Of a DNA stretch of 26,581 nt, positions 1-24,527 are shown one piece after another; the stretch's first letter is position 1, and each line of letters opens with the position of its first letter. The DNA comes from a virus. The position numbers were made by a program, and so were the translations under genes. The notes below the pieces were generated by a model. The model was not told where the DNA came from, made no database searches, and saw only the letters and a list, made by a program, of their open reading frames with translations. The stretch covers positions 1 to 26,581 of IMG/VR virus record IMGVR_UViG_3300017967_008812. One strand, written 5' to 3'.

Positions 1-313
1 ACTGTTAGAAGGCACCATGTCAGCTATCAAAGCTTTGGTTGCATCTGATGCTCACGGAGGGAACCGTTATTGGTCCGTGAAACCAGCGGCTCACAGCTTA
101 GGATTTATGACCTATATCGAAGCTGATAGAGGGACTATCCTTAAGGCTCTTACAAAGTTAACAGAGTCAGGGTTCTTAACTAAGGTAGGCCTTAAAAAGG
201 TTGACGGCAAGCTAACAGAACTGGATAAGTCCCAAGTTAATGCTTTTCAGCTCCGTTACATTGTTACCCCTGTAGAGGAGGCTGATGCAGCTGCTGATGA
301 AGCGGCCGAATAA
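1..313 (+). CDS. Winged-helix-like protein, 5'-truncated by window edge
   Basis: The reading frame is open to the left edge (codons from base 2), so the ATG at 17 is probably internal and the true start lies outside the window. The C-terminal half (WSVKPAAHSLGF, then TILKALTKLTESGFLTKVG) lines up with residues 74-118 of the minus-strand protein at 4386-4898 (FSVKP..., DILWSLKQLEKKGLAKQVG). Both then end in an alanine/acid-rich tail (here AADEAAE). The helix-turn-helix-like stretch with a following G-L-x-K-x-V-G strand suggests a winged-helix DNA-binding fold. This is inferred from pattern only. The two paralogues bracket the small-gene region on opposite strands. Role unknown; a nucleic-acid-binding or regulatory role is possible. 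Confidence 0.7.
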   Translation, partial: LLEGTMSAIKALVASDAHGGNRYWSVKPAAHSLGFMTYIEADRGTILKALTKLTESGFLTKVGLKKVDGKLTELDKSQVNAFQLRYIVTPVEEADAAADEAAE

Positions 314-327
314 CCGGTCCCTTCGGG

Positions 328-353
328 GCGGGGATAAAACGGAGACACCCCGC
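328..353 (+). terminator. Weak hairpin after first gene
   Basis: GCGGGG (328-333) can pair with CCCCGC (348-353) around a 14-base loop. A CCC-TTCG-GGG mini-hairpin (319-328) overlaps its left arm. No T-run follows, so if it terminates transcription it is not a classical intrinsic terminator. It lies just before the promoter at 357-384. Confidence 0.3.
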
Positions 354-356
354 TCA

Positions 357-384
357 TGCATATTATTCTGTCACCCATTATAAT
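357..384 (+). promoter_or_regulatory. Phage promoter, TGCATA-N16-TATAAT
   Basis: TGCATA at 357-362 is followed by exactly 16 bases and then TATAAT at 379-384. The same box and spacing occur at six other places in the window, usually as TGCAAA. The expected start is near 391, giving a short leader (ACACCTTACAACCTTGGAG) to the gene at 414. Confidence 0.65.
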
Positions 385-413
385 ATAAACACCTTACAAC
401 CTTGGAGTTATTT

Positions 414-773
414 ATGCGTTACTTTTCAATAGACTATCGTTCACCCCCTTCTGGAATGGGACAAATCATTGACACAACTAAGCCTGAGAAGATTGGAGAG
501 CGATGGAATTATATCCTCATCACCTACTCAGGATGTGGTCCAGCATATGATCCGACTTATAATATGACAAAACACTTCACCTCTAAACAAGCGGAAGAAG
601 AAGGATGGGCCGGTCCCGTTCTAGAGGAAATCATTCGGTTCCTTCGAGCTCAAAAAGTCACACATGTCTACGACTCAGAACTCTCATACAATTATGAGGG
701 AGGAAATGAAAATGACTTCGAAGGTCTATTCACATTGGATAGATGGGTTGAAATTATGAGAAGCTTCCTGTAA
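414..773 (+). CDS. Small hypothetical protein (119 aa)
   Basis: I place the start at ATG 414, with the ribosome site TTGGAG at 402-407. The upstream in-frame TTG at 402 lies inside that site and is not credible. The product begins MRYFSIDYRSPPSGMGQ and is rich in aromatic and acidic residues, with no membrane segment or signal. It looks like an alpha/beta domain, but I recognise no family. It is the first gene behind the 357-384 promoter. Its stop (771-773) is followed by a second promoter of the same type, so it is probably its own transcription unit, with read-through possible. Confidence 0.75.
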   Translation: MRYFSIDYRSPPSGMGQIIDTTKPEKIGERWNYILITYSGCGPAYDPTYNMTKHFTSKQAEEEGWAGPVLEEIIRFLRAQKVTHVYDSELSYNYEGGNENDFEGLFTLDRWVEIMRSFL

Positions 774-783
774 TGGAAGCTCG

Positions 784-811
784 TGTAAAACTTAAAACAG
801 CGTGTTATAAT
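784..811 (+). promoter_or_regulatory. Phage promoter, TGTAAA-N16-TATAAT
   Basis: TGTAAA at 784-789, 16 bases, TATAAT at 806-811. The leader that follows contains AACCAACCAACAAGGAG before the ATG at 842, like the leaders at 2421 and 4900. Its position rules out the upstream ATG at 773 as the start of the next gene. Confidence 0.75.
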
Positions 812-841
812 AGTAAGGTAACCAACCAACAAGGAGTAACT

Positions 842-1423
842 ATGACCCATACAAAACAACAAATCATCACAATCCTCGAGAACCCTGCAGCAGTCGACGC
901 AGCTATTATCATCTTGGCTAACAACCAGACGGCTGGTGAACTTCGCTCTAAGAGCACACATAACCTCAACGGCGAAGGCTTCTCAGCGGCGTACGGCAAA
1001 GTCGGTACCCGGTTCTACGAGTTCGTCACAGGAATCCAAATGTCTACCGGACAAAAGAAGTGGCCGGCTAGATCCCTCTCTCACCCCAAAGCAGAACAGG
1101 TCTTCCGTCGCTATGTAGGACACAAACACAAAACAGTAGTTGACTATGCCCGTCATATTGCTCAGCTCCACTGGAAGCAATTGGGTGAGCTATTCAACAT
1201 GAACTTCGATGTACCAGCACCTCAAAGCTTGGATGTGGAACCGAAGGTGGACAAGAACAGATTTGTGCAGTTCAGCTGCCAGCTGGTCAGACAATCACCC
1301 AAGGCATTCCTAGTTAACATAGGTGGTGCGGAACACTGGATGCCCAGAAGCAAGTGTGCTATCTCTGGTGGCACCCTCTCTATCCCTCAGTGGTTGGCAG
1401 AAGCCAAAGGCTTGGAGGTGTAG
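842..1423 (+). CDS. Hypothetical phage protein (193 aa)
   Basis: Start at ATG 842, eight bases after AAGGAG and downstream of the 784-811 promoter. The frame extends up to an ATG at 773, but that lies upstream of the promoter. The N-terminal half carries a compact motif (GELRSKSTHNLNGEGFSAAYG then FVTGIQMSTG.KKWP) that looks like a conserved catalytic or binding core. The C-terminal part (QSPKAFLVNIGGAEHWMPRS) resembles a small beta-barrel module I associate with phage replication and hypothetical proteins. No membrane segments. I cannot name the family; a nucleic-acid-binding function would be a guess. Confidence 0.8.
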   Translation: MTHTKQQIITILENPAAVDAAIIILANNQTAGELRSKSTHNLNGEGFSAAYGKVGTRFYEFVTGIQMSTGQKKWPARSLSHPKAEQVFRRYVGHKHKTVVDYARHIAQLHWKQLGELFNMNFDVPAPQSLDVEPKVDKNRFVQFSCQLVRQSPKAFLVNIGGAEHWMPRSKCAISGGTLSIPQWLAEAKGLEV

Positions 1424-1437
1424 AGCAAAATAATACT

Positions 1438-1508
1438 CCGTAGGTTGGTGGTGGTGTGACAGGTGGTTACTGTCGCGGACAGGGTGGGTATTGATCACCA
1501 ACTTACGG
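1438..1508 (+). ncRNA. Structured RNA element with two competing helices
   Basis: CCGTAGGTTGGTG (1438-1450) pairs with CACCAACTTACGG (1496-1508), 13 pairs including one G-T wobble. Inside it, CTGTC (1470-1474) can pair either with GACAG at 1458-1462 (7-base loop) or with GACAG at 1478-1482 (3-base loop), so two exclusive folds exist. It sits between the stop at 1423 and the 31-codon gene at 1539. It lacks tRNA hallmarks (no T-arm GTTC, 13-pair closing stem). It could be a processing site, an attenuator-like leader or a small RNA; none is shown. Confidence 0.5.
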
Positions 1509-1538
1509 CATCTTTACAACAACATTACAGGAGACGAT

Positions 1539-1634
1539 ATGATGACAGCAGGACACTTTGCACTATTCATCATCATCAACATATCATTCATCTATACGGC
1601 ATCAAAATTCTTAAATGCCAACATCTTGGAGTAA
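1539..1634 (+). CDS. 31-residue membrane microprotein
   Basis: The tandem ATGs at 1539 and 1542 follow CAGGAG (1528-1533). The product reads MMTAGHFALFIIINISF and on to ...NILE, then TAA at 1632-1634. Residues 6-19 are almost wholly hydrophobic, enough for a single short membrane helix. The last codons contain the TTGGAG ribosome site of the next gene (ATG 1638), so the two are translationally coupled. Small single-helix proteins like this are common in phage early regions. I have no function to propose. Confidence 0.6.
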   Translation: MMTAGHFALFIIINISFIYTASKFLNANILE

Positions 1635-1637
1635 CAT

Positions 1638-1841
1638 ATGAAATCAAAAACTTGGCCATATCTTTCATCTGACATAAAACGTAAACCACGAGGCTTTTGG
1701 CAAGACGATCGTACAATTGCAGTGATAAGAGAATATATTGACAATCGGTTGACAGAAGAGGAAGCAACGCAAAAACTCTTGGTCGCCAAAGGTGACGTCA
1801 TCTGGTACGCAAACGTTGAACGTAAAAAGGGAGGACAGTAA
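1638..1841 (+). CDS. Small hypothetical protein (67 aa)
   Basis: ATG 1638 follows TTGGAGTAACAT, four bases after the stop of the microprotein. The product is basic at both ends (KRKPRGFWQDDRT; ERKKGGQ), with a helical middle (IREYIDNRLTEEEATQKLL) that resembles a short helix-turn-helix or helical-hairpin domain. It could bind nucleic acid, but that is only an inference from charge and helix pattern. The GGGAGG that serves the next gene lies within its last codons. Confidence 0.7.
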   Translation: MKSKTWPYLSSDIKRKPRGFWQDDRTIAVIREYIDNRLTEEEATQKLLVAKGDVIWYANVERKKGGQ

Positions 1842-1843
1842 TT

Positions 1844-2143
1844 ATGACACCAAAAGAAGCACAGCGTTTCACGAAACTACTACACAACACAGACGACATG
1901 ACACCACTGGAGAAGGCAGAGGTAGGTCGACTTAAGACAGCGTACCTCTCAGCGGTCATCCAAGAGACAGAGGCGTATGTCGCAGCCAAAGAGGCATATG
2001 AAGAAGCAAAGGAACACCTTGATCTGCAAGATCCAGGAGAGCGTGAGGTCCTTATGACGCTGTTGAAGAGCATGCGTGACGGCGAGAAGAATGTGCTGAT
2101 CATAGCAGCAGAGTTAGAGACACACTTTGGAATAAGCGCGTGA
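1844..2143 (+). CDS. Helical, acidic small protein (99 aa)
   Basis: ATG 1844 comes two bases after the preceding stop, with GGGAGG upstream. The sequence is almost all helix-forming (TPLEKAEVGRLKTAYLSAV, then VAAKEAYEEAKEHLDL) with heptad-like spacing of L/A, suggesting a coiled coil or helical bundle. No cysteines or membrane segments. It is part of the 1539-2396 run of coupled genes. Family unknown. Confidence 0.75.
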   Translation: MTPKEAQRFTKLLHNTDDMTPLEKAEVGRLKTAYLSAVIQETEAYVAAKEAYEEAKEHLDLQDPGEREVLMTLLKSMRDGEKNVLIIAAELETHFGISA

Positions 2144-2150
2144 GGTGGAA

Positions 2151-2396
2151 ATGACTATAAAGATACAAGGGACATACGTGATTGTCCGAAAGAAGGGCGC
2201 AGGGAACGACAGCATGCCAATGAAGGCTTTGACACTGAGTGAAGCGACAGATAGAGCCAATGAGGATTGGTTGGCATGCTGTGACGAGAGGCTGTTACGC
2301 TACAATGTACTGGACTTCCGCAACGTGGGTAGCTACCACATTGCAGACACAGGATTGGGATACACTTACCAGATTGTGTACATTCCTGCAAATTAA
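2151..2396 (+). CDS. Small hypothetical protein (81 aa)
   Basis: I prefer ATG 2151 (MTIKIQGTYVIVRKK), just behind GAGGTGG. The in-frame GTG at 2145 lies within that ribosome site. The protein has an N-terminal beta-hairpin, a helix (ALTLSEATDRANEDWLACC) and a C-terminal strand pair (YTYQIVYIPAN). That gives a compact alpha/beta fold of no family I recognise. Its final codons include the TGCAAA box (2387-2392) of the next promoter. Confidence 0.7.
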   Translation: MTIKIQGTYVIVRKKGAGNDSMPMKALTLSEATDRANEDWLACCDERLLRYNVLDFRNVGSYHIADTGLGYTYQIVYIPAN

Positions 2397-2414
2397 GTGG
2401 GGGAGTGTTATAAT
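2387..2414 (+). promoter_or_regulatory. Phage promoter, TGCAAA-N16-TATAAT
   Basis: TGCAAA at 2387-2392 lies inside the end of the previous gene, 16 bases precede TATAAT at 2409-2414, and a second TATAAT follows at 2415-2420. The leader GTAACCAACAAAGGAGG runs to the ATG at 2443. Confidence 0.8.
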
Positions 2415-2442
2415 TATAATGTAACCAACAAAGGAGGTAATA

Positions 2443-2667
2443 ATGGAAAACAAAAACACACAAATGAAAGGATCCGGAATAGGAATCATTGACTTATTTG
2501 TTGTTATGCTTATCGGGCTTAAGTTAGCCAATGTCATTGATTGGTCTTGGTGGTGGGTTCTCGCTGGGTGGTGGGTACAACTAGTTATAACAGGTAGCTT
2601 CTACGTGATGATATCTGTAGTTGACACACTTAACCACATAGCCCGTGCAAAAGGCAAAAACAAGTAG
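2443..2667 (+). CDS. Two-helix membrane protein, tryptophan-rich (74 aa)
   Basis: ATG 2443 follows AAAGGAGGTAATA, a near-perfect ribosome site. After a short polar N-terminus come a hydrophobic segment (residues about 13-30, IIDLFVVMLIGLKLANVI) and a second one rich in tryptophan (WSWWWVLAGWWVQLVIT, about 34-60), ending in a basic tail (ARAKGKNK). The pattern 'G-x-IDWSWWWVLA' is one I recall from many small phage proteins loosely annotated as transmembrane Fragile-X-F protein. Probably in the inner membrane, function unknown. Confidence 0.8.
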   Translation: MENKNTQMKGSGIGIIDLFVVMLIGLKLANVIDWSWWWVLAGWWVQLVITGSFYVMISVVDTLNHIARAKGKNK

Positions 2668-2673
2668 TATAAT
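2646..2673 (+). promoter_or_regulatory. Phage promoter, TGCAAA-N16-TATAAT
   Basis: CGTGCAAA with TGCAAA at 2646-2651, 16 bases, TATAAT at 2668-2673 and again at 2674-2679. As at 2387, the upstream box lies within the end of the preceding gene. The leader TATTCAACCAAAGGAGC runs to the ATG at 2702. Confidence 0.8.
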
Positions 2674-2701
2674 TATAATGTATTCAACCAAAGGAGCAAA
2701 C

Positions 2702-2845
2702 ATGTTACATCACATCTATTACATCAACGCCAACGGTGCAGACAATTACATGATCGTACCATTCGACGAGATCGATCTCACTGTTGCATTTTTAGAGTCA
2801 CTCGACCACAAAGTCGTTGCCTACTGGCCGATTGAGGTAGCATAA
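2702..2845 (+). CDS. Small hypothetical protein (47 aa)
   Basis: ATG 2702 comes after AAAGGAGCAAAC. The longer frame from 2645 starts upstream of the promoter and is rejected. The product (MLHHIYYINANGADNYMI...) looks like two beta strands, a helix (DEIDLTVAFLESLDH) and a final strand. That is a small soluble alpha/beta protein. I recognise no family. Confidence 0.7.
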   Translation: MLHHIYYINANGADNYMIVPFDEIDLTVAFLESLDHKVVAYWPIEVA

Positions 2846-2885
2846 CATACAACCAAACCGTAACACTAACAAAAAGGAAGTAAAC

Positions 2886-3026
2886 ATGACTATAGTAACA
2901 TGGAAGACAAGGTGGGGTGAGACAAAGACAACCCGCTTTCAACAATCAACAGGATGGGTATTCATTGCACGTCTCAAACAACAAGGCAATAAGATTGTCA
3001 GCATAAGACAGGAGCACAGATGTTAG
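2886..3026 (+). CDS. Small basic hypothetical protein (46 aa)
   Basis: ATG 2886 follows AAAAAGGAAGTAAAC. The product begins MTIVTWKTRWGETKTTRF and ends IRQEHRC. It is rich in K, R, T and Q, mostly beta-prone, and strongly basic. Its last seven bases overlap the next gene (ATG 3020), whose CAGGAG lies inside this one, so translation is coupled. A leader of repeated AACCAAACC/ACTAACA lies between 2846 and 2885, without a promoter I can identify. Confidence 0.6.
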   Translation: MTIVTWKTRWGETKTTRFQQSTGWVFIARLKQQGNKIVSIRQEHRC

Positions 3027-3220
3027 CAGCACTTTACAACACATTTATTCTCTTCTGCGGTTTCGCAACAATTATTTGTGCTTCTCTTGCTGCCACTGCA
3101 CTCATCAACCTCTTCTCAGAAGTAGGACCAACATGGCGTGACGACAAGATGCTACTTGCATGGTCGCTTCCAACCGGTCTATTATTCGCAGGAATAACAG
3201 CATTAATGTTAGGTTGTTAG
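3020..3220 (+). CDS. Two-helix small membrane protein (66 aa)
   Basis: ATG 3020 lies within the end of the preceding gene, with CAGGAG 7 bases upstream. Residues about 4-32 (YNTFILFCGFATIICASLAA...) and 44-64 (LLAWSLPTGLLFAGITALML) are membrane segments, joined by a short loop with charged residues (TWRDDK). It ends in Leu-Gly-Cys. No signal-peptidase or lipobox pattern at the N-terminus. Possibly an inner-membrane protein made early in infection; a holin-like role cannot be excluded but nothing supports it. Confidence 0.7.
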   Translation: MLAALYNTFILFCGFATIICASLAATALINLFSEVGPTWRDDKMLLAWSLPTGLLFAGITALMLGC

Positions 3221-3268
3221 TATATGCAGAAGACACGAGAATGTACGAGAATAAACTTTACACAACAT

Positions 3269-3279
3269 TATAATATAAT
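3269..3279 (+). promoter_or_regulatory. Overlapping TATAAT boxes before the GDLV cluster
   Basis: TATAAT occurs at 3269-3274 and again, overlapping, at 3274-3279, with the gene start at 3295. No TGCAAA-like box lies 16 bases upstream (GAGAAT there), so it differs from the seven conserved promoters. Expected start near 3286 leaves a very short leader. Confidence 0.4.
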
Positions 3280-3294
3280 ATAGGTGCACACAAA

Positions 3295-3555
3295 ATGGAT
3301 GTAGGAGAGACACCATATTTTAGAGAAGGCGACTTGGTGCTGTGCAAACTACGACATGGCTTCAAGCGTCTGGTTCTAGTGCTGGACGCACAGCCATATC
3401 AACTTTGGCGTGGCCAAGCAAGCAACAACAGGTGGCGATACACCGTGCTACGCACCAGAGGCGAATTTGGTGGCACAGCAATAGGCAAAATGCACCTTAA
3501 GCCGGAGTGGCTTTTGCAGAGAATTACAGGAGGAGGACAGGATGGAAAGAGATAA
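3295..3555 (+). CDS. GDLV small beta-barrel-like protein 1 (86 aa)
   Basis: ATG 3295, preceded only by a weak AGG. The N-terminus has the motif FREGDLVLCKLRHG, then hydrophobic strands (RLVLVLDAQ) and a WRYTVLR strand. This order, G-D-L-V, then an LVLV strand, then a Trp-containing strand, recurs in the three following genes and suggests an SH3-like or KOW-like small barrel. Function unknown. It overlaps the next gene by 14 bases. Confidence 0.75.
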   Translation: MDVGETPYFREGDLVLCKLRHGFKRLVLVLDAQPYQLWRGQASNNRWRYTVLRTRGEFGGTAIGKMHLKPEWLLQRITGGGQDGKR

Positions 3556-3781
3556 CATGCCACTATTTCAGACAGGAGATCTTGTGCGCTTAGTTAACAA
3601 TCACGGCAGATATCCGCGGACAACCAACGTCCATGGAGATCTTTCGCTGGTGGTTGACGTGGACAAGATACACTACAAATTGTACAGTTGGAAGAGTAAG
3701 GAAGTATGGTGGTGCTCACATAATATGCGTTTCGACTACCATCTCGTGCAGGGGATCTCACGCGGAGGCGGAGATGCGTAA
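3542..3781 (+). CDS. GDLV small beta-barrel-like protein 2 (79 aa)
   Basis: ATG 3542 with AGGAGG five bases upstream, inside the preceding gene. The N-terminus LFQTGDLVRLVNNHG matches the GDLV motif of its neighbours, followed by LSLVVDVD and the strand VWWCSHNMRFDYHLV. The stop overlaps the next start by eight bases. Tandem, coupled and same fold class as 3295, 3774 and 4071: apparently a locally duplicated family. Confidence 0.75.
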   Translation: MERDNMPLFQTGDLVRLVNNHGRYPRTTNVHGDLSLVVDVDKIHYKLYSWKSKEVWWCSHNMRFDYHLVQGISRGGGDA

Positions 3782-4070
3782 GCAGCAGTGGAACGCAGGG
3801 GATCTCGTGGAAGTCACCATGCATGAGAAGCTTGGGTGGGGTGATAAGCGTGAAAGCTATCTCGTCCTGGTGCTAGGACGCCACTACGCAAAGCAGAAGC
3901 AGACCTATCCACTTACAGCAGATTTGGAGCGTGCCAGGAAGACAGTGTACCGCGTGCTGAAGAAGAGCGGCGCAAATGTTGACATGTGCCTGATGGGTTT
4001 GTCTGACTGGACAATTGGTGAGATGACTTGCACCAATCGTCTCGTGCAGTCATCTTGTGTGGAGGAGTAG
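3774..4070 (+). CDS. GDLV small beta-barrel-like protein 3 (98 aa)
   Basis: I place the start at ATG 3774, behind CGGAGGCGGAG; the long upstream extension to 3633 lies over the previous gene in another frame. It has QQWNAGDLVEVTMHE, then YLVLVLGRHYAK and a TVYRVLKKSG strand, matching its neighbours in order. It ends ...LVQSSCVEE; the same LVQ ending element occurs in protein 2 (YHLVQGIS). Next gene starts directly after its stop. Confidence 0.75.
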   Translation: MRKQQWNAGDLVEVTMHEKLGWGDKRESYLVLVLGRHYAKQKQTYPLTADLERARKTVYRVLKKSGANVDMCLMGLSDWTIGEMTCTNRLVQSSCVEE

Positions 4071-4358
4071 ATGGGAAGAGGAAAGATCCGTGTAGATCCG
4101 ATGTCTTTAGAGGTAGGAGATCTTATAGTCACAGACGGGAGGATGAGCTTGGAACTAGGTGACGTGTTGCTGGCTGTGCGTAAGTTGTCTGATATTGAGC
4201 TCTCGCAGTCGGAAAAGAGACATCCATTCGTCGACGGCAGAAGAGTGGGAGATCACTGGCGTCTGCTGACGCGTCTGGGAGTGGTGGACATATGGCTGGA
4301 TCCCCATGCGTCGTGGGTGGCGCACGTTGTGAAGGGTACAAAAAAAGACAGCTGCTAG
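4071..4358 (+). CDS. GDLV small beta-barrel-like protein 4 (95 aa)
   Basis: ATG 4071 abuts the previous stop, with GGAGGAG upstream. It has MSLEVGDLIVTDGRMSLELG and DVLLAVRKL, the same N-terminal module as the three preceding genes. The last codons (KGTKKDSC) and the TAG stop (4356-4358) lie inside the terminator hairpin that serves the convergent gene at 4386-4898: the stop codon is in the hairpin loop. Confidence 0.75.
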   Translation: MGRGKIRVDPMSLEVGDLIVTDGRMSLELGDVLLAVRKLSDIELSQSEKRHPFVDGRRVGDHWRLLTRLGVVDIWLDPHASWVAHVVKGTKKDSC

Positions 4359-4366
4359 AGCTGTCT
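4340..4366 (-). terminator. Intrinsic terminator for the 4386-4898 gene
   Basis: AGACAGCT (4346-4353), loop GCTAG, AGCTGTCT (4359-4366): a perfect 8-pair stem. On the minus strand it is followed by seven Ts (4340-4346). It lies 20 bases past the minus-strand stop and within the coding end of the plus-strand gene. Confidence 0.9.
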
Positions 4367-4385
4367 TGTGGGGAAGAGACCCCGC

Positions 4386-4898
4386 CTATTCGGCAGAGTC
4401 ATCTCCTGCTGGAGCATCTTCAGCTGGTGCAGCTTCAATGCTATGTACCCAACGGCGTTGGAAGTTATTGACCTCAGCTACTGGAACTATAACCATTTCC
4501 TTCTTAGGAAGTCCACGGTCTTCTCCAACAATCTTGCCTTTGATACCAACTTGTTTGGCCAGTCCCTTCTTCTCAAGCTGCTTGAGAGACCAAAGGATAT
4601 CCTCACGGGTGGCATCAACATGTTGATTGATAGCTATAGCACAAGCTGCAAACATTCCGGATGTGGGCTTCACAGAGAAGAACTTAGCTTTTTGTCCCTG
4701 AGGAGAGGCAAAGAATTCTGTGACTTCAGAGAGGACAGCTTGTCTACGGGATTTGGTAGCACCAGCTTTTGCTGCTCTATCAGCTTTGTCTGTGTAGACG
4801 GGTACTCCATCTTGCAGACCAATAAGCCCAGCTTGGGTAAGAGAGATGACTTGAGCAAGAGTTAACTCAGAGATGGGGGTTTGTGTTGTGTTAGTCAT
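4386..4898 (-). CDS. Winged-helix-like protein (170 aa), paralogue of the first gene
   Basis: ATG at 4896-4898 with GGAGGT seven bases upstream on the minus strand. Residues 1-30 form a small helical part (ELTLAQVISLTQAGLIGLQ), 38-56 are basic and alanine-rich, and 56-145 form a winged-helix-like domain (ILWSLKQLEKKGLAKQVG) ending in PKKEMVIVPVAEV. The tail is Ala/acid-rich (EAAPAEDAPAGDDSAE). It matches the truncated gene at 1-313 over the core and the tail. It has two tandem promoters and its own terminator, so it is a well-expressed single-gene unit, fitting an abundant DNA-binding or regulatory protein. That role is inferred. Confidence 0.85.
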   Translation of the reverse strand: MTNTTQTPISELTLAQVISLTQAGLIGLQDGVPVYTDKADRAAKAGATKSRRQAVLSEVTEFFASPQGQKAKFFSVKPTSGMFAACAIAINQHVDATREDILWSLKQLEKKGLAKQVGIKGKIVGEDRGLPKKEMVIVPVAEVNNFQRRWVHSIEAAPAEDAPAGDDSAE

Positions 4899-4930
4899 AA
4901 AGACCTCCGGTTTGGTTGGTTAGTAATAAT

Positions 4931-4958
4931 ATTATAACAAGCGGGGTGAACACTTGCA
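4931..4958 (-). promoter_or_regulatory. Phage promoter (minus), TGCAAG-N16-TATAAT
   Basis: On the minus strand: TGCAAG (4958-4953), 16 bases, TATAAT (4936-4931). The leader to the ATG at 4898 carries AACCAACCAAACCGGAGG, the same A/C-rich pattern seen in the plus-strand leaders. Confidence 0.75.
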
Positions 4959-5031
4959 TGAATGAGAGGTAGAACCAAAGCTCCGTGGGAGCCAGCTGGT
5001 GGATAATGATCCAATCCTGCCTTATGGTTAT

Positions 5032-5059
5032 ATTATAACACATCATGACGTCTTTTGCA
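5032..5059 (-). promoter_or_regulatory. Phage promoter (minus), TGCAAA-N16-TATAAT
   Basis: On the minus strand: CGTGCAAA with TGCAAA at 5059-5054, 16 bases, TATAAT at 5037-5032. It lies about 100 bases upstream of the 4931-4958 promoter and points the same way, so the two are tandem, or the distal one makes a short leader RNA. The leader includes a small GGCTCC-CAC-GGAGCC-like hairpin near 4980-4992. Confidence 0.75.
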
Positions 5060-5280
5060 CGAGACACAGTGTATTGACGCGTCATCTCAGGCGCTACAGC
5101 GCACGCTACATCTCTCGTGCAATTCGACGCGCTGGAGCGCGCCCAAGACAACTTGTCCGCAGACCGCTATAGGGCGCCTCTACTTTTGGCTCTCAGAGGG
5201 CCCCTTGAGGGCGCTACCCCCCGCGCTACTGCGCCGCCAGCCCATGGGCGGGCGCAAGACGGCCCTGCGCTGGCTTTGAT
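5060..5280 (+). other. GC-rich block dense in short inverted repeats; no gene seen
   Basis: This block is strikingly GC-rich against AT-rich flanks. It holds TGACGCGTCA (5075-5084), GCGCT-AC-AGCGC (5091-5102), CGCGCT-GG-AGCGCG (5128-5141), GCGC-TACT-GCGC (about 5224-5235), GCCCATGGGC (about 5240-5249) and five CGCTA(C/T) words. The frames open across it have no ribosome site, are alanine/proline-rich by composition and run through promoter and leader signals, so I do not call genes. It separates the minus-strand promoters from the rightward late-type genes. Candidate replication origin, operator array or structured RNA. Confidence 0.5.
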
Positions 5281-5295
5281 ACTCTTTCTTCTCCT

Positions 5296-5319
5296 GAAAT
5301 TTTTTAAAACTTTTACCTA
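5296..5319 (+). repeat. AAAACTTTT(T/A)CCTA element, copy 1
   Basis: A stretch of GAAATTTTTT followed by AAAACTTTTACCTA. It matches copies at 5436-5458 and 6011-6033 closely. Copies 2 and 3 sit directly upstream of ribosome sites; this one sits 20 bases before a TATAAT box. Confidence 0.55.
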
Positions 5320-5338
5320 CTGCTCTCTACTCATAGAG

Positions 5339-5344
5339 TATAAT
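5339..5344 (+). promoter_or_regulatory. TATAAT box before the tagged-protein genes
   Basis: TATAAT at 5339-5344 with no TGCAAA box 16 bases upstream (CTACTG there). A start near 5351 would place CCAATAT (5348-5354) at the very 5' end of the transcript, where it can pair with ATATTGG at 5404-5410. Confidence 0.35.
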
Positions 5345-5347
5345 TTG

Positions 5348-5418
5348 CCAATATTTCGATTTACAACAATAAAAAAGTCTTTTTCTGGGACCAAGAACTG
5401 TGGATATTGGATTTTTTT
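5348..5418 (+). terminator. Possible leader attenuator
   Basis: CCAATAT (5348-5354) is complementary to ATATTGG (5404-5410), and the right arm is followed by A and seven Ts (5412-5418). If transcription starts at the TATAAT at 5339, this could end a leader RNA of about 65 bases. The stem is AT-rich and the loop long (49 bases), so it is only a candidate. Confidence 0.3.
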
Positions 5419-5422
5419 CACA

Positions 5423-5443
5423 AAAATTTCTTCGGGAAATTTT
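5423..5443 (+). terminator. AT-rich hairpin with TTCGG loop
   Basis: AAAATTTC (5423-5430), loop TTCGG, GAAATTTT (5436-5443), eight pairs, followed after CAAAAC by TTTTT. It overlaps copy 2 of the AAAACTTTTTCCTA element and lies 35 bases before the gene start at 5479. It may be a terminator, an mRNA stabilising stem or a regulator site. Confidence 0.35.
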
Positions 5444-5458
5444 CAAAACTTTTTCCTA
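5436..5458 (+). repeat. AAAACTTTTTCCTA element, copy 2
   Basis: GAAATTTTC then AAAACTTTTTCCTA, 13 bases before the AAGGAGG of the gene at 5479. See copies at 5296-5319 and 6011-6033. Its position upstream of genes of the late-type region suggests a promoter or operator specific to this set. Confidence 0.55.
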
Positions 5459-5478
5459 TTTATCTCTAAGGAGGTGTT

Positions 5479-6000
5479 ATGAAATTAAGTAGAAGACAAT
5501 TAAGAAGACTAATAGCTGAAGCTTATACCACCGGTATTCCTTTTAGAACTGCTATTGAGCAATCAGAGTCGAATATTGAAAGACAGTATCCTGATTATAT
5601 AGATAGATTAAATATATTGCAAAGTGATGATCCTAACCAGAGTGAAATTATTAAATCGTCGTTAGATCAAAACAGACCTAGTCCATTGGGTATAAAACCA
5701 AGACCGATTGACTATGTTAGCAGTGGTGTAACACAAGATCAGATCTATGATGTTGTAGATGAATTTTTCAGTTATGATCCGCAAGCATATGCTGGTGCAA
5801 TGTCACAGGGAGGGATGTCGCTTAGAGATATTGCAGAAGAGATTTTTGATTATTGTGTTACTGGTCCGGGAATTGGTGCAGATGTACTTTATGATGAAAA
5901 TGGTAATGCTTATGATCAAAGTCAAGTAGATGAAGTAATTAGGCGATATAAAGAGGCACTTAAACGGCCACATCATAGGGAATTAGGGCATATATCATAA
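5479..6000 (+). CDS. Tagged protein (173 aa), possible internal capsid protein
   Basis: ATG 5479 with AAGGAGG. The N-terminus MKLSRRQLRRLIAEAYTT is the clearest copy of the repeated tag, with an L-I-A-E/A site after residue 14, fitting the (L/I)-x-E rule for the T4 prohead protease. The rest is acidic and helical (QDQIYDVVDEFFSYDPQAY, then DIAEEIFDYCVTGPG) and ends in a Lys/Arg/His-rich tail (KEALKRPHHRELGHIS). No family recognised. It is the first gene after the control region, suggesting strong expression. Packaging in the head is inferred from the tag alone. Confidence 0.8.
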   Translation: MKLSRRQLRRLIAEAYTTGIPFRTAIEQSESNIERQYPDYIDRLNILQSDDPNQSEIIKSSLDQNRPSPLGIKPRPIDYVSSGVTQDQIYDVVDEFFSYDPQAYAGAMSQGGMSLRDIAEEIFDYCVTGPGIGADVLYDENGNAYDQSQVDEVIRRYKEALKRPHHRELGHIS

Positions 6001-6010
6001 AATTTTCTGA

Positions 6011-6033
6011 GAACTTTTTAAAACTTTTTCCTA
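6011..6033 (+). repeat. AAAACTTTTTCCTA element, copy 3
   Basis: GAACTTTTT then AAAACTTTTTCCTA between genes, 24 bases before the ATG at 6057 and just ahead of TAAGGAG. It nearly matches copy 2 in both sequence and position relative to the ribosome site. Confidence 0.55.
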
Positions 6034-6056
6034 ATTAATTCTAATAAGGAGTTATT

Positions 6057-7099: not shown

Positions 7100-8512
7100 G
7101 TGAAATTAACAAGAAAACAATTAATATTAATTATCGAATCGTTGATTAACGAAAAGTATATGACACGTAAAGAAAGAGAAGATGCAGCTATAGCCGGTGT
7201 CACCGGATCGAAAAGAAAAGCTAGGCTTGCTTATCGTGATAAGCAAGAAAAAGATTTTGATAATCTTTCACAAAATATATTAGACGAAGAATTGGGGAAG
7301 CACGGTCTTAAAGATTATAAAATTAAGAACATAGAGGAATCCTTAAGTTTAACTGGTGGAGAGGTTAATAAAATTAAAATTACGTATGAAAACGGATATG
7401 TCTCTGAATTTACTGGTGAAACAAATGATGATTTAAAAAATAATATTCTTGACATGGTAAGTTCACGTGACAATAAAGACATGAACATCTTTCTAACAGT
7501 TCAAAAATCTTATGCACGGGCACTTAAAAAATTCTTTAATTTAGAAATTCGTGAACAATATGAGGATGCCGGTTATAAACTTTTTCATGCTATTAATGCT
7601 TATGACCGGGGAAAATCAAAAGAAGACCTAGCAAAATTTAAAGAAGTCGGCATAGCAGACAACAACCTCTCTGGGTATACGCTAGCTTTTGAAAGTATTT
7701 TAAATAAAAGCGGAATGGAGCTTTCGACTGTATTATTACCTGAAGAGATATTAAGTGTGTATGGAGGTGATGCAGTTTCCCAATCCAAAGCGATGTTAGG
7801 AAGTATATTTCCACAGTTTGGTATTCTTGTTGATGGCCATTTAACATCCGCACTTCATGGAGATACTATGACAACAACTGTCAAAGATGCAATAGGAACA
7901 ATGCATAGCTCTGGCAAAACTATGTCACTTGGCGGGTATCGTCACGAAGGTGAAGGTTTTAATGAATTTGTAAAGTATTTAAACGATATAAGAATTAGTG
8001 CGCACGAATTAAAAGCTAGTACTTTACACGGGCCATGGAAGCGTTGGTTAACAACTATAACTGGCACAGAAGGGACTGCGTTGGAAACATATTTAGATAA
8101 GAAGTACAAATTTGGGGGAGGAATACAGACTAATTATGACAGTATATTCACAGGTGTGCGGGATTATAATGAATATATGGAGGCAACTGTTGACAACTGG
8201 AATACAGTAGGTATATATTACAAAGCCGGTATTGACTTTCTAGCGAAAGATATTTCTGAAACTTTAAGACTAGCATCGCAAACGGGTAATAAAGAATACA
8301 TAGAGCTCTATAATAGAGTTGCTAACTCCAATAAGACAGATGCTGTATCTATTTATACGGCTGAAAATTTATATGATGCTGTAGGCACATTGAGTGATGT
8401 GTTAAGCAAAGTTGAGATTCCTATTGTAAGTGATACTACTCCGGGGCAGAGTTTGCAGGAAGGATTATCTCGAGGTTCTTTATATAGAAAAAGATACTGG
8501 GGAAGATATTAA
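7100..8512 (+). CDS. Tagged protein with distinctive C-terminus (470 aa)
   Basis: GTG 7100 is chosen because it begins the tag MKLTRKQLILIIESLINE directly, with AAAGGA upstream. Possible cleavage sites are I-I-E/S (residue 13) and L-I-N-E/K (18). The middle has an alpha-helical part (about 130-215) and a glycine/threonine-rich part (FPQFGILVDGHLTSALHGD at about 237-255) that looks enzyme-like, though I recognise no catalytic motif. The C-terminus has S-L-Q-E/G followed by LSRGSLYRKRYWGRY, an Arg/Tyr-rich ending I recall from marine phage proteins; L-Q-E/G would also fit a prohead-protease site. It is followed by a structured terminator. Possible packaged effector, unproven. Confidence 0.8.
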   Translation: MKLTRKQLILIIESLINEKYMTRKEREDAAIAGVTGSKRKARLAYRDKQEKDFDNLSQNILDEELGKHGLKDYKIKNIEESLSLTGGEVNKIKITYENGYVSEFTGETNDDLKNNILDMVSSRDNKDMNIFLTVQKSYARALKKFFNLEIREQYEDAGYKLFHAINAYDRGKSKEDLAKFKEVGIADNNLSGYTLAFESILNKSGMELSTVLLPEEILSVYGGDAVSQSKAMLGSIFPQFGILVDGHLTSALHGDTMTTTVKDAIGTMHSSGKTMSLGGYRHEGEGFNEFVKYLNDIRISAHELKASTLHGPWKRWLTTITGTEGTALETYLDKKYKFGGGIQTNYDSIFTGVRDYNEYMEATVDNWNTVGIYYKAGIDFLAKDISETLRLASQTGNKEYIELYNRVANSNKTDAVSIYTAENLYDAVGTLSDVLSKVEIPIVSDTTPGQSLQEGLSRGSLYRKRYWGRY

Positions 8513-8520
8513 GTAGAGAT

Positions 8521-8588
8521 GAGGCGAGGATGACCCATGGGTCTTACTCGGCGATCGTAGAGTAAAAGTCGCGCCGGCCACGTGCCGG
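8521..8588 (+). ncRNA. Highly structured 3' region after the 470-aa gene
   Basis: CGAG (8525-8528) pairs with CTCG (8547-8550) around GACCC-AT-GGGTC (8532-8543), and CGGCG (8549-8553) could pair with CGCCG (8572-8576). The sequence is GC-rich compared with its flanks and runs directly into the terminator at 8574-8599. It may be a 3' stabilising structure or a small RNA released from the end of the transcript. Confidence 0.4.
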
Positions 8589-8599
8589 TTTTCTTTTTT
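8574..8599 (+). terminator. Intrinsic terminator after the 470-aa gene
   Basis: CCGGC (8574-8578), loop CACGT, GCCGG (8584-8588), then TTTTCTTTTTT. A GC-rich stem with a T-rich tail. The next gene starts at 8647. Confidence 0.8.
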
Positions 8600-8646
8600 C
8601 TGTGTTTTTTCTTTTTCGTGTTCCTAATTATGAATAGGAGAAAGAT

Positions 8647-10357: not shown

Positions 10358-11030
10358 TATTATATTGCGGGAAGGTGCAGTGACACCAGAGCAGCTTAGC
10401 GATGATTACACTGTTGTCATAAAAGATAATGGAATTGTTGTAACTCCGCTTAAAAGTCTAGGTAGAGTTGACATGAAAGAAAGATTTGCAGATCTAGATC
10501 CAAATACATTAATAAACATGCCTAGTTATTCTATTTATATTAAATATAAGTATACAGATCCTAAACTCCCAGAACCGGTAGAGGATTTATTTGCTGAATT
10601 GGAGATGAGAAAATGGGTAGGTATGTGTAATGATGCTTGGGAAGTATACTGGGCAGAAGTTCATAAAGATTATAAAATGGGTGGTTTTGGACCGCTCATG
10701 TATGATGTAGCTATGGAATTGGCAGGAAAGTTTGGTTTGATATGTGACAGAAATAGTGTATCTAATGAAGCAGCAAGATTATGGAATTATTATTTGCAGT
10801 TTAGGGCAGACGTCTTTTCAGAAGATATTGATATTGGAAATTGTCCTTCTGATATGATGTCGACAAATGATAGAATAGCAATAAGCAAAGGTGCAGATCA
10901 CCCATGGCATCAGAAAGTTTATTTTAGTACTCACTATATGTCTGGCGGTGGTCAAAAACCTGTTATAGATGCATTGCACAGAGCGGGTAGATTAGAATGG
11001 GAAGGACACATGTATCCGGGAGAAAAATAA
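10317..11030 (+). CDS. Tagged GNAT-like acetyltransferase 2 (237 aa)
   Basis: ATG 10317, twelve bases after the previous stop, with AAAGGAT. The tag MRLTENQLRDIIRNIILREG gives I-L-R-E/G after residue 19, the same position as in its paralogue. The core has CNDAWEV, YKMGGFGPLMYDVAMELA (about 119-136) and DRNSVSNEAARLWNYYL, parallel to the gene at 9622, including the G-F-G-P acetyl-CoA loop. Residues 20-95 and 170-237 differ clearly, so substrate choice probably differs. Enzyme class is inferred from the loop and motif order. Confidence 0.75.
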   Translation: MRLTENQLRDIIRNIILREGAVTPEQLSDDYTVVIKDNGIVVTPLKSLGRVDMKERFADLDPNTLINMPSYSIYIKYKYTDPKLPEPVEDLFAELEMRKWVGMCNDAWEVYWAEVHKDYKMGGFGPLMYDVAMELAGKFGLICDRNSVSNEAARLWNYYLQFRADVFSEDIDIGNCPSDMMSTNDRIAISKGADHPWHQKVYFSTHYMSGGGQKPVIDALHRAGRLEWEGHMYPGEK

Positions 11031-11032
11031 TT

Positions 11033-11260
11033 TTGAAAAATATTGAAGTTGGTGATGTTGTAAAATTTGTGCCTTATTATGCATCTACAGGTATGCAAGG
11101 ATCTTCTTTAAAATTAAAAATACCCGAATTCTCTGGTTTAGCTTTGGTATACAAAGTTTATTCAGTCAGAGGAATCGGGTATGCACATATTATGTTATCT
11201 AATAGAGATAAAGAAGTAATAGGGTTTGCAGGTATTGAAATGTTGAGTAGAATTAATTAA
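11033..11260 (+). CDS. Small GDVV beta-barrel-like protein (75 aa)
   Basis: I favour TTG 11033, two bases after the previous stop, with GGGAG ten bases upstream, giving MKNIEVGDVVKFVPYYAS. An in-frame ATG at 10997 lacks a ribosome site and would lie in the previous gene. The IEVGDVVKF opening, a later GLALVYKVY strand and a closing helix match the GDLV family at 3295-4358. Its stop overlaps the stop of the convergent protease gene by four bases. Confidence 0.65.
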   Translation: MKNIEVGDVVKFVPYYASTGMQGSSLKLKIPEFSGLALVYKVYSVRGIGYAHIMLSNRDKEVIGFAGIEMLSRIN

Positions 11261-11730
11261 AAGTGTCTTGTTATTGATGATTCAACAACTAAATGATGCA
11301 TAATATGACTTTTATCATGTTCTTCATGATCAACACCTAGTGAGTGACCTATTTCATGAATGATAAGATCTAGATCTTGTGTATAGTTATTATCAATTTT
11401 AATTGTCGCTGCGTCAAGATAAAAATTGCCTCCAATTTGATTGTAGTTACGATATGTCATACCATAATATCTTTTTATGTCTAAGTCTCTTTGTCCTGTG
11501 ATTCTTATTTCATTGCTAACAAATTCTTCTTCGCATGATTTTTTGATAATTTCTTTATTAAGTTTAAATCCTAAGTTTTTCCAAAAATTTATTGCTGTTT
11601 TGATATTGTTTTCAGGTATATGTGAATCATTGCAAAGTACAATTTGTGGTTCGTTGTACCAGTGATGTTGTGTATTCATATCATTTTTTGTGTATGCATT
11701 GCAAATGTTTGTAATTAAAAATAACAGCAT
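11257..11730 (-). CDS. Metzincin zinc protease (157 aa)
   Basis: The zinc site HEIGHSLGVDH (His125, Glu126, His129, His135) with the downstream Met-turn SHIMHH (Met144) is the complete metzincin (matrixin-type) signature HExxHxxGxxH...M. The N-terminus MLLFLITNICNA could be a short signal peptide, so the enzyme may act in the periplasm or outside. The length is close to a bare metzincin catalytic domain without a propeptide. ATG at 11730 follows AAGGAG, and the TGCAAA-N16-TATACT promoter lies just upstream. It is on its own against the surrounding genes. Target unknown; host surface protein or phage maturation are both possible. Confidence 0.85.
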   Translation of the reverse strand: MLLFLITNICNAYTKNDMNTQHHWYNEPQIVLCNDSHIPENNIKTAINFWKNLGFKLNKEIIKKSCEEEFVSNEIRITGQRDLDIKRYYGMTYRNYNQIGGNFYLDAATIKIDNNYTQDLDLIIHEIGHSLGVDHEEHDKSHIMHHLVVESSITRHF

Positions 11731-11760
11731 TGTGTAACTCCTTTTTATCTTTATATTAAT

Positions 11761-11788
11761 AGTATAACATGAAATTTATAAGTTTGCA
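11761..11788 (-). promoter_or_regulatory. Phage promoter (minus), TGCAAA-N16-TATACT
   Basis: On the minus strand: CGTGCAAA with TGCAAA at 11788-11783, 16 bases, TATACT at 11766-11761. Same layout as the promoters in the first 5 kb, here serving the protease gene whose ATG is at 11730. Confidence 0.75.
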
Positions 11789-11863
11789 CGTGTAGTGATA
11801 GTTACTTAGTGGGGGTTATTATATATTGTGTATTATTGATATGCAATATATTTTATTTAATTT

Positions 11864-12118
11864 ATGAATGGAATGACATTTATTCTTATCGTATTTGTTG
11901 TTATTGTTTTTTCTACTACTGTAATTTTAAATAAATGGATTGATTTTGCAGATAAAGAAAAAGAAAGGCGTGAGAAGAAACATGTTGATAATAATACACC
12001 TAAATTCAACTTTACAAAGTTTAATAAAGATAATATAATAATAGATGTCGACTGTGAAATTATAGAAGAAACTAATGATCGAAGAAAATACTTATCTATA
12101 GAAAATAAAGATCATTAG
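11864..12118 (+). CDS. Single-pass membrane protein (84 aa)
   Basis: The start is uncertain: ATG 11864 or 11873, neither with a clear ribosome site. Residues about 4-22 (MTFILIVFVVIVFSTTVIL) form one membrane helix, followed by a highly charged stretch (FADKEKERREKKHVDN) and a soluble acidic tail. The charge pattern puts the C-terminal part in the cytoplasm. It resembles small phage anchor proteins; a spanin or holin is possible but lacks the usual companions here. Confidence 0.6.
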   Translation: MNGMTFILIVFVVIVFSTTVILNKWIDFADKEKERREKKHVDNNTPKFNFTKFNKDNIIIDVDCEIIEETNDRRKYLSIENKDH

Positions 12119-16245: not shown

Positions 16246-16463
16246 TTTTGAAGTTCCTCTGCTAGTATTTTTTCACCTTCTTCTTTTGAGAAGGTTACTT
16301 TTTGTTTGGATCCATCTTCAGCTTCATATTCTTCTTCACCTTTTGATGCAGCGTCAGCATGTGCAATTCTATCTTGTTTTTGTGAAGGTGTCATTTCTTC
16401 ATTAACAAATTTTTCATTGTTATAGTATCTTTTAATAAAGTTCCTGATATCAGATCTTTTCAT
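16242..16463 (-). CDS. Small acidic protein with tag-like start (73 aa)
   Basis: ATG 16463 overlaps the upstream gene by four bases. It begins MKRSDIRNFIKRYYNNEKF, basic and amphipathic like the tags, then F-V-N-E/E; the match is weaker than in the plus-strand genes. The remainder is charged and disordered-looking (KGEEEYEAEDGSKQKVTFSK). Between two protease genes; it might be an inhibitor, chaperone or scaffold for one of them, which is a guess from position only. Confidence 0.65.
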   Translation of the reverse strand: MKRSDIRNFIKRYYNNEKFVNEEMTPSQKQDRIAHADAASKGEEEYEAEDGSKQKVTFSKEEGEKILAEELQK

Positions 16464-17284
16464 AAGTTTTCCTTTAAAAATTGTTTAATTGCTTCTGGCT
16501 TTGGACCTACTGCTAGATTGTTAAAGTCGACAGCAGCTTTAGCTATTATACTAACTATCTCGCCTTTTCCATTAATGACTGAACTTCCTGAGCTTCCAAA
16601 TGTTGCTGGTATTGTAAAACTACATTCATGACTATTACAACCTGCAAATTTGCCTTGATAATGTTGTCTTATTTCATCTTCATGTGACCATTGTGGTGCT
16701 GAGATTGCATAAATTTCTTCTCCAATGTCTGGGGCTTTATTTGCTACTTTCATATTTTTTGCATATTTATAAAATTTTGATTCGAATTCAATTAGACATA
16801 GATCATCTTTTTCATTCATGATAGGTTTTTTCTCTATTAGATAATCGTTACCCATAAATGTTGCATACATTCCAACTAAAGGGTCTTTTTCAAAGATTAA
16901 TCCTGTAGCGTCCATTATATCTTCTGTGTTTAGAGTTTTACACCAATGAGCCGCTGTTAATACATTAATTTTTTCTTTGTTAACATTTACTACATAACCT
17001 GAGGCTGATGTAAGTGGAACTAAAGGATCATAGCATAGATCACTTTTATCTTCATCTACATAACAGATTGAGTTGAAGTTATTACTGTCTCTTGTCATGA
17101 CAAAAGAAGTTAGAAACACAAAGTTTTGATTGTGAAGAATTTTATTTTTGTTTTTAAATTTAAAATTTAAATATTCAGCATTTAGTACGTCTTTTGGTTT
17201 GCTATATTTGTTATTGACACAACATCCTACTTGTACGACAAATAAGAAACTTATCATAGCCAAACCTATAATTTTTTTAAACAT
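16460..17284 (-). CDS. Secreted trypsin-like serine protease (274 aa)
   Basis: The first 22 residues (MFKKIIGLAMISFLFVVQVG then CC) form a signal peptide with a possible, imperfect lipobox ending at Cys21. The catalytic triad of the chymotrypsin fold is visible: His113 in NVLTAAHWC, Asp160/161 in NEKDDLCLIEF, Ser232 in TFGSSGSSVING. Six more cysteines suggest disulfides and an extracytoplasmic site. It is the first gene of the minus-strand operon and has AGGGG before its ATG at 17284. A secreted or membrane-anchored S1 protease is unusual in a tailed phage; it could cleave host periplasmic proteins or block a second phage. Confidence 0.85.
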   Translation of the reverse strand: MFKKIIGLAMISFLFVVQVGCCVNNKYSKPKDVLNAEYLNFKFKNKNKILHNQNFVFLTSFVMTRDSNNFNSICYVDEDKSDLCYDPLVPLTSASGYVVNVNKEKINVLTAAHWCKTLNTEDIMDATGLIFEKDPLVGMYATFMGNDYLIEKKPIMNEKDDLCLIEFESKFYKYAKNMKVANKAPDIGEEIYAISAPQWSHEDEIRQHYQGKFAGCNSHECSFTIPATFGSSGSSVINGKGEIVSIIAKAAVDFNNLAVGPKPEAIKQFLKENL

Positions 17285-17522
17285 AATTTACCCCTATATA
17301 AATAGGTATGTTTAAAAATTATAATTTACTAATAGTATATCCTGATTGATAGAGTTGAATTATTAATAGAGAGAGATAGTAGATTATTAATATAATATAA
17401 AGTATATGTTATTAATTACAAAAATTGTAAATTATAATTTATCTTTAATATAGTACATTACTATAATACTTTATTTAACTTTATGAATAATAGAGTATAC
17501 TAATAGTAGAGGATAATTAATA
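17285..17522. other. AT-rich divergent control region
   Basis: A 238-base gap, almost all A and T, between the minus-strand protease operon and the plus-strand PrkA operon. It holds two copies of the palindrome AAATTATAATTT (near 17316 and 17428), TATACT-type boxes facing both ways (minus near 17335, plus 17496-17501 with TTTAAC 16 bases upstream), a TATAAT at 17462-17467, and TATAAATA at 17297-17304. No TGCAAA box. It must contain the starts for both operons, but I cannot choose the active boxes. Confidence 0.5.
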
Positions 17523-20028: not shown

Positions 20029-20042
20029 ACATAGGAGCTTAA

Positions 20043-24287: not shown

Positions 24288-24527
24288 TTAATTAAGAGAG
24301 AGTGATTCTGTTACTCTCTTTTTTATTTTTTCGATAATCTTTTTTTCTATTTGACAGACTCTCATTCTTGTTATATTATAAATCTCTCCGATGTCTTGAA
24401 GAGTTTTATTACCTGAATTAGAAGCGGCAACACAACAATTACCGTCATTTTTTGAATTAATCCAGTACCTGCATTTTTTTTGTTGACAGGTTTTACTTTG
24501 TTTATTATAAAATTCGTAACACTTCAT
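24288..24527 (-). CDS. Zinc-finger plus sigma-region-4-like HTH protein (79 aa)
   Basis: ATG 24527 on the minus strand; AGGAG lies 12 bases upstream, a longish gap. N-terminal Cys3, Cys14, Cys19, Cys31/32 with KKCRYWINSKNDGN suggest a small zinc site. Residues 42-70, TLQDIGEIYNITRMRVCQIE and the basic KIIEKIKKRV, match the sigma-70 region 4.2 form (TLEEIG...TRERIRQIE...LRKLR), which contacts the -35 box. It lacks sigma region 2, so it is not a full sigma factor; it may redirect host RNA polymerase, possibly to the TGCAAA boxes. That link is speculation. Confidence 0.75.
   Translation of the reverse strand: MKCYEFYNKQSKTCQQKKCRYWINSKNDGNCCVAASNSGNKTLQDIGEIYNITRMRVCQIEKKIIEKIKKRVTESLSLN
24297..24324 (+). 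terminator. Intrinsic terminator of the PrkA operon
   Basis: AGAGAGTGA (24297-24305), loop TTCTG, TTACTCTCT (24311-24319), nine pairs with one G-T, followed by a run of six Ts (24319-24324), an A and more Ts. It overlaps the coding 3' end of the convergent gene, as at 4340-4366. Confidence 0.9.

Follow-up and report, generated by a model that had tools for sequence, protein, structure and literature searches.

A conserved GC-rich noncoding island at the edge of early-promoter territory in a group of large phages: a probable origin of replication or master switch

Results

Features of the island and its flanks

The window, that is, the whole stretch of DNA analyzed here, is an entire IMG/VR record, a linear fragment of 26,581 bases. 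Positions 5061–5285, assigned to neither strand, form a GC-rich noncoding island composed in this phage of diverged GC palindromes with GCGC, GGCC, and GGCGCC centers. GC content was 46% from 1 to 5060, 64% from 5061 to 5280, and 31% from 5281 to 26581, and of all 120-bp segments of the window the most GC-rich fell inside the island (0.683 at 5161). The original prediction had set the island between AT-rich flanks; this is true of the right flank, at 31% GC, but the left flank, at 46% GC, is not AT-rich. The island had also been called gene-free. In a mechanical list, ORFs do overlap it, on the plus strand at 4999–5172, 5055–5279, and 5117–5482 and on the minus strand at 4891–5151; however, its similarity to the corresponding islands of two relatives, G001 and G002, was weak and alike in all six frames, and because no reading frame was favored we concluded that the island behaves as noncoding DNA.

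To the left lies a leftward gene (4386–4898, minus strand) encoding a possible winged-helix protein of 170 aa. For the suggestion that this product binds DNA there were only weak winged-helix signs: no Pfam or PHROG family matched it, the mean pLDDT of its predicted structure was 57.7, Foldseek gave no match at E ≤ 0.001 (several winged-helix proteins were among the nominal matches), and a profile search returned one PDB chain (E 0.056). At the same place G002 has instead a sigma-70 region 2 protein (PF04542, E 4e-14), unlike the protein of the window and G001. Between this gene and the island both of the leftward TGCAA promoters reported earlier (5059 and 4958) were present, each with TATAAT at a spacing of 16: TGCAAA-N16-TATAAT at 5032–5059 and TGCAAG-N16-TATAAT at 4931–4958 (minus strand), conserved in G001 at 42596 and 42484 on its minus strand, respectively. 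On the other side a conserved AT-rich tract (5285–5473, plus strand), 78% identical to G001 over 190 columns and, from 5418 to 5463, 93.5% identical to G002, leads from the island to the first rightward gene (5479–6000, plus strand), which starts with MKLSRRQLRRLI. Its product gave no Pfam or PHROG family and no homologue in viral_contigs.

Several other features of these phages were recorded. Paralogues of the 4386–4898 protein occur elsewhere in the early region (window 17–313, plus strand; G002 10539–10799; G001 22228–22545). Sigma-like proteins are split: the window encodes one with sigma-70 region 4 (24288–24527, minus strand), and G002 encodes one with region 2 (17258–17740, minus strand) that has a 44% identical paralogue (11556–12008, plus strand). 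An N-terminal tag of the type MKITKRQLRRIIKEE is found on otherwise unlike proteins, beginning in the window at 5479, 6487, 7100, 8647, 9622, and 10317, and on many genes of G001–G003, G006, and G007; there were 53 pattern matches in seven contigs, 21 of them in G006 and 0 in G018. In kind this tag may be comparable to the T4 capsid targeting sequence, which, as outlined in one account, is carried by internal proteins that are packaged (PMC3012670). Leftward genes at 11257–11730 and 16460–17284 (minus strand) resemble a matrixin-type metallopeptidase and a trypsin-like peptidase, respectively, both weakly and just below the Pfam cut-offs. The window also carries a DUF444 (YeaH-like), SpoVR, and PrkA operon (17523–21977, plus strand), 88–94% identical in G013, and distant PrkA homologues occur in Thermus phages and huge phages.

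Conservation in related phages

A protein search with the 4386–4898 product matched a single contig, G001 (locus L003, 107,885 bases), whose 57% identical homologue lies beside a GC-rich block; the arrangement is that of the window, with the leftward homologue, the GC-rich block, an AT-rich leader, and rightward genes, which begin M-K/R-I-K/T. A shared-promoter scan gave further records, and protein searches in those led to G002 (123,028 bases); the promoter scan was the only source of G003 (61,706 bases). G006 (267,118 bases), G007 (254,743 bases), G009 (98,649 bases), and G018 (40,810 bases) were reached through the PrkA-like protein, at 67–72% identity. As G009 was identical to G007 over 420 bp, it was taken as a copy and left out of the counts, giving seven islands including that of the window. 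Positional homologues of the island were thus those in G001, G002, G003, G006, G007, and G018, six other non-redundant uncultured phage contigs of 41–267 kb, so that conservation of the block in relatives, one of the checks proposed for it, was borne out.

Other searches were less productive. The 4386–4898 protein yielded no new relative in viral_contigs and none in genome_contigs, a search among annotated phages gave no match, and the core word had 0 matches in genome_contigs. One scan gave 19 loci, of which only L014 (G001 again) had a blastn or tblastn match to the window, and the others were dropped; another gave four stretches, and L080 and L081, which lacked homologues of the tested window proteins, were dropped. 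G013 begins to the right of the locus and so allowed no judgement, and the first 40,000 of the 40,023 bases of G014 were covered. Four huge phages with a distant PrkA (29.7–33.7% identity) had neither the island nor a TGCAA promoter in the 50-kb stretches leftward from PrkA.

Seen in the window alone, the step from 46% to 31% GC looks chimera-like, and the island might then be a compositional accident or an assembly junction without function. The same junction was found in the six other contigs, however, with both flanks conserved in G001 and G002, and we regard this explanation as highly improbable.

The palindromes and their array

The words named in the original prediction were all found where it had placed them: GCGCTnnAGCGC at 5091 and 5129, its sole two occurrences in the window, TGACGCGTCA at 5075, GCCCATGGGC at 5240, and five CGCTA(C/T) words (CGCTAC at 5092, 5104, 5212, and 5224; CGCTAT at 5165). 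Palindromes with arms of at least 5 numbered 6 in the island versus 1.7 in dinucleotide shuffles (P = 0.021), a modest excess, and the far smaller P values obtainable for the named words are post hoc. As conserved units these words did not survive comparison: GCGCTnnAGCGC, TGACGCGTCA, and GCCCATGGGC were absent from the islands of G001 and G002, where CGCTA(C/T) had a single occurrence, on the G001 minus strand, and we rejected them as functional words. The palindromes named earlier are not conserved; their neighborhood is.

In G003, G006, G007, and G018 the island is a row of GGGGCCCC-like GG(G)GCC(C)C palindromes whose period is 12 bp. The GGCC centers lie mostly 10–14 or 22–25 bp apart, with 7 sites in G003, 6 in a chain in G006, 7 in G007, and 5 in G018, and the pairs at 12 or 24 bp (each ±1) numbered 9, 9, 6, and 3 in these contigs versus 0.2–0.7 in shuffles (P ≤ 0.005 each). 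Periodicity was not significant in the window (P 0.054), G001 (0.05), or G002 (0.22), whose sites (GCGC, GGCC, and GGCGCC) are a diverged form. Site spacing nevertheless agrees between the window (35-25-12-12) and G001 (about 35-25-12-11). Because periodicity alone is not significant there, the sameness of the diverged islands and the arrays rests on position and downstream order, and from the place of the islands and the sequences that follow we take the two to be the same element. The array in four relatives points to a protein-binding row, and the diverged palindromes of the window presumably do the same job.

The array is a single locus. Chains of 5–7 sites occurred once per contig in G003, G006, G007, and G018, and no other chain longer than three was found in any of the 19 contigs examined, apart from the 7 sites in G009, the copy of G007; no array was detected in G004, G005, G008, G010–G012, or G014–G017. 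Outside the island, G018 had slightly more GGCCCC-type words than expected from composition (7 versus 4.3), and G003, G006, and G007 had about as many as expected or fewer. The densest cluster of GGCCCC/GGGCGC-type words was the island in eight of the nine contigs tested, and the ninth, G005, had two such words in all. With dispersed words near the composition expectation, the island is single-copy and would therefore be one locus with one job.

A single-copy GC-rich noncoding block could also be a packaging site of the pac or cos kind. We consider this very unlikely, as in the three island contigs with a terminase match the large subunit gene was 94 kb (G002 and G006) or 128 kb (G007) away, and no contig end lay at the island. 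A centromere-like segregation site, at which a partition protein would link the island to a phage tubulin, has more in its favor. Known tubC sites, as described in two reports (PMC5016525; PMC7762940), consist of tandem repeats at one locus to which a small winged-helix protein binds. The island is a single-copy tandem array, and phages of the group carry tubulin-family genes: G006 123255–123737 (minus strand), the only one over the Pfam cut-off, and, below it, G018 39158–39628, G007 227319–227789 (minus strand), and G004 40305–40781. In G006 and G018 the tubulin gene lies about 17–20 kb to the right of the island. The same reports, however, place tubC directly upstream of tubRZ, whereas no tubR-tubZ operon adjoins the island, the tubulin gene is at least 17 kb away or was not found, and the sites are GC palindromes; moreover, G004 has a tubulin gene without an array, and G003 has an array with no tubulin gene detected on its fragment. 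A tubC-like role is accordingly an improbable one.

Early promoters and the direction of transcription

The leftward promoters beside the island belong to a phage early-type family, CGTGCAAA-N16-TATAATATAA with fixed spacing, whose members in the window are at 2387, 2646, 5059, and 4958 and which is found in G001 at 10.7–40.2 kb, in G002 at 0.9–15.9 kb, and in others; our search found no paper on a TGCAAA early promoter. When plus-strand early promoters (TGCAA-N17-TATAAT) were counted in the seven contigs, 61 lay to the left of the island (in 264 kb) and 8 to the right (in 617 kb). The boundary at the island held in five of the seven contigs, the exceptions being G003 (3 left, 3 right) and G007 (0 left, 2 right). 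The island therefore lies at the edge of early-promoter territory, beside the conserved AT-rich tract leading into the rightward genes, much as had been proposed.

The proposed transcription divide fared differently. A rightward gene follows the island in 7/7 contigs (the start in G007, at 12373, was read by eye), and transcription is divergent in the window, G001, and G002; but in G003, G006, G007, and G018 the flanks are co-directional and rightward, and the neighbor in G006 and G007 is VWA/peptidase-like, as judged by eye from the translation. The conserved feature is therefore not the divide itself.

This position raises the possibility, which we hold tentatively, that the island is a master control of early and late transcription, in which an activator or repressor would act on the palindromes as its operators, and the AT boxes described below would be the late promoter or the leader of the rightward operon. 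In its favor are the excess of early promoters on the left, the rightward gene always close behind the island, the AT boxes just before start codons, that of the second gene included, and a possible regulator leftward of the island in three of the seven contigs (a protein with sigma region 2 in G002, and one that is winged-helix-like in G001 and the window). Against it, the promoter boundary fails in G003 and G007, the sites are not dispersed to other genes, no promoter consensus was recognized within the array, and the adjoining regulators are not conserved across the group.

Hairpin, CTAAGG, and AT boxes beside the array

The order of elements was the same in all seven phages: the GC block, a GC hairpin region, usually CTAAGG, an AT box with a CTCGAG-like center, and the rightward gene. 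The hairpin core of the window, GCCGCCAGCCCATGGG (5233–5248, plus strand), comprises an arm and the loop of a GC hairpin (CCGCC-loop-GGCGG); this 16-mer is identical in the G001 island, and its AGCCCA is also in G002. CTAAGG or a near variant was present in G001, G002, G003, G006, and G007 and was not evident in the window or G018. AT boxes are of the type TCTCGAGaAATTTTcAAAAC; the window, G001, G002, G006, and G007 each have two or three of them. In the window copy 1, TCTCCTGAAATTTTTTAAAACTTTTACCTA (5289–5329, plus strand), which has counterparts in all six relatives, is a direct repeat (78%) of copy 2 (5428–5468, plus strand), which lies shortly before the start codon at 5479 and has a CACAAAAATTTCT-type match also in G001, G006, G007, and G009. 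A copy in G006, CACAAAAATTTCTCGAGCAAGTTTCGAAAC, resembles the window copy at 5419, CACAAAAATTTCTTCGGGAAATTTTCAAAAC. Copy 3 (5995–6055, plus strand; 79% match to the leader) lies ahead of the second rightward gene (6057), where there is no GC island; G001 likewise has an AT box without a GC block before its next gene, at 43646, so that these boxes are gene-leader-like.

The GC block might instead act as a folded RNA, leader, or terminator. In favor of this are the hairpin core common to the window and G001 and the fold z-scores of some strands, which were ≤ −2 (−2.2 for the minus strand of the window, −3.7 and −3.2 for the plus and minus strands of G003, and −3.9 for the plus strand of G018). 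Over both strands of the seven phages, however, z ranged from −3.9 to +0.1, 10 of the 14 strand tests were weaker than −2, and the strand was inconsistent; there was no Rfam match at the gathering score for the window or L003 and no conserved U-run, and tandem self-complementary GGGGCCCC words alone give many alternative hairpins. We rejected structured RNA as the main reading and consider it unlikely.

A second conserved intergenic element was seen in the rightward region, at window 8510–8612 (plus strand), G001 45872–45965, G002 20840–20945, and in G013 (L079 16643–16745, minus strand). It consists of GAGnAGGACC, a loop, and GGTCCTACTC, followed by TCGTAGAGTAAAAGTCGCGCCGGC, which is invariant in the four; in some of them a GC hairpin and a T run come next. 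From its sequence it looks like a structured RNA, in which the possible partner of TACTC is an upstream GAG or a downstream GAGTA, but there were no double-sided pair changes and no Rfam match at the gathering score.

Base composition and strand skew

The island was the 120-bp GC maximum of its contig in five of the seven (window 0.68, G001 0.75, G002 0.74, G003 0.65, and G006 0.72), but not in G018 or in G007, where the maximum (0.70 at 11,921) is within an open frame. The strongest GC-content changepoint lay 0.2–3.9 kb to the right of the island in 7/7 contigs. Nearby genes are GC-rich too, the mean GC of the 5 kb on either side being high for each contig (quantile 0.79–0.99). An AT-rich tract adjoins the island in all seven; it was not specially weak, as 3–24% of 40-bp windows per contig melt as easily.

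A change of GC skew had been offered as a check on an origin, and none appeared: changepoints were computed, and there was no sign change at the island in any of the seven contigs, only changes of magnitude nearby in three. The best skew changepoint was within 3 kb of the island in the window, G001, and G002 and at least 6 kb away in the other four. A strand-skew origin signature was therefore rejected.

Discussion

The island is a conserved, noncoding locus, one per genome, that has kept its position among related large phages, and it is probably a replication origin or a master switch site. The pair of functions first proposed for it, origin or multi-operator switch, thus remains the best, upheld by conservation and by the position at the early-promoter edge and shorn of the named words, the transcription divide, and the skew flip. 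The best-fitting single reading, plausible but short of an even chance, is that the island is a phage replication origin working in an iteron-like manner. It comes first in our ranking because the island is unique, has its array next to an AT tract, and lies at a compositional boundary; the uniqueness of the array, with GGCCCC-type words near expectation elsewhere, makes an origin fit better than a regulon operator. The order of elements common to all seven phages, the GC-content changepoint 0.2–3.9 kb to the right of the island, and the skew changepoint within 3 kb in three contigs also favor an origin; the AT boxes that recur without a GC block, the skew changepoints at least 6 kb away in the other four contigs, and the non-significant periodicity in the window, G001, and G002 weigh against it. 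In an iteron-like origin a phage DNA-binding protein would assemble cooperatively on GC palindromes spaced by about one helical turn, next to the AT-rich tract; the protein array would load first, and the adjacent AT tract would then open. That the sites bind protein is suggested by their arrangement, and that the outcome would be replication rather than transcription control is our inference.

The origin of lambda, as outlined in one source, consists of iterons bound by O protein beside an AT-rich tract (PMC7466680), and the island is similar in being a short, single-copy row of repeated sites adjoining such a tract, with tandem sites at one locus in G003, G006, G007, and G018. It differs from ori-lambda as described there in being intergenic rather than inside the initiator gene and in its sites, which in these four relatives are 8-bp GC palindromes of 12-bp period instead of the four O-binding iterons (PMC7466680). 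No initiator gene was recognized among the neighbors in the window, G002, G006, and G007, and there was no strand-asymmetry switch in the seven contigs. Since we found no skew sign change, no specially weak AT tract, and no initiator gene, we have not classed the island as a lambda-type origin, but as a locus that may work like one. In the open-access literature, searched with a few term combinations, we found no description of jumbo-phage iteron origins or of palindromic GC-rich phage origins like the island.

The transcription switch ranks close behind the origin, because AT boxes also precede the second gene and because of the promoter boundary. The island resembles lambda pR' and other master late promoter regions in being one locus, placed where early and late territory meet and followed by a long rightward operon; unlike them, it has no recognized late promoter or antitermination site. 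We know of no counterpart of the GC-rich palindrome array in such regions.

A more speculative proposal, which we think quite improbable, is that the island is the first recognized cis-site of a segregation or positioning system in large tubulin-bearing phages, the words having drifted with the binding protein (from GGGGCCCC to GCGC/GGCGCC) and the architecture having been kept. If so, one island would, as a segregation site, mark where replication starts as well as the early/late boundary. For large phages with unmapped origins, the island offers a concrete single-copy coordinate for testing, and the combination of a 12-bp-period GGGGCCCC array, TTGCATACTnACTGGAGCC, CTAAGG, and a CTCGAG-type AT box provides a signature with which other metagenomic phages may be searched.
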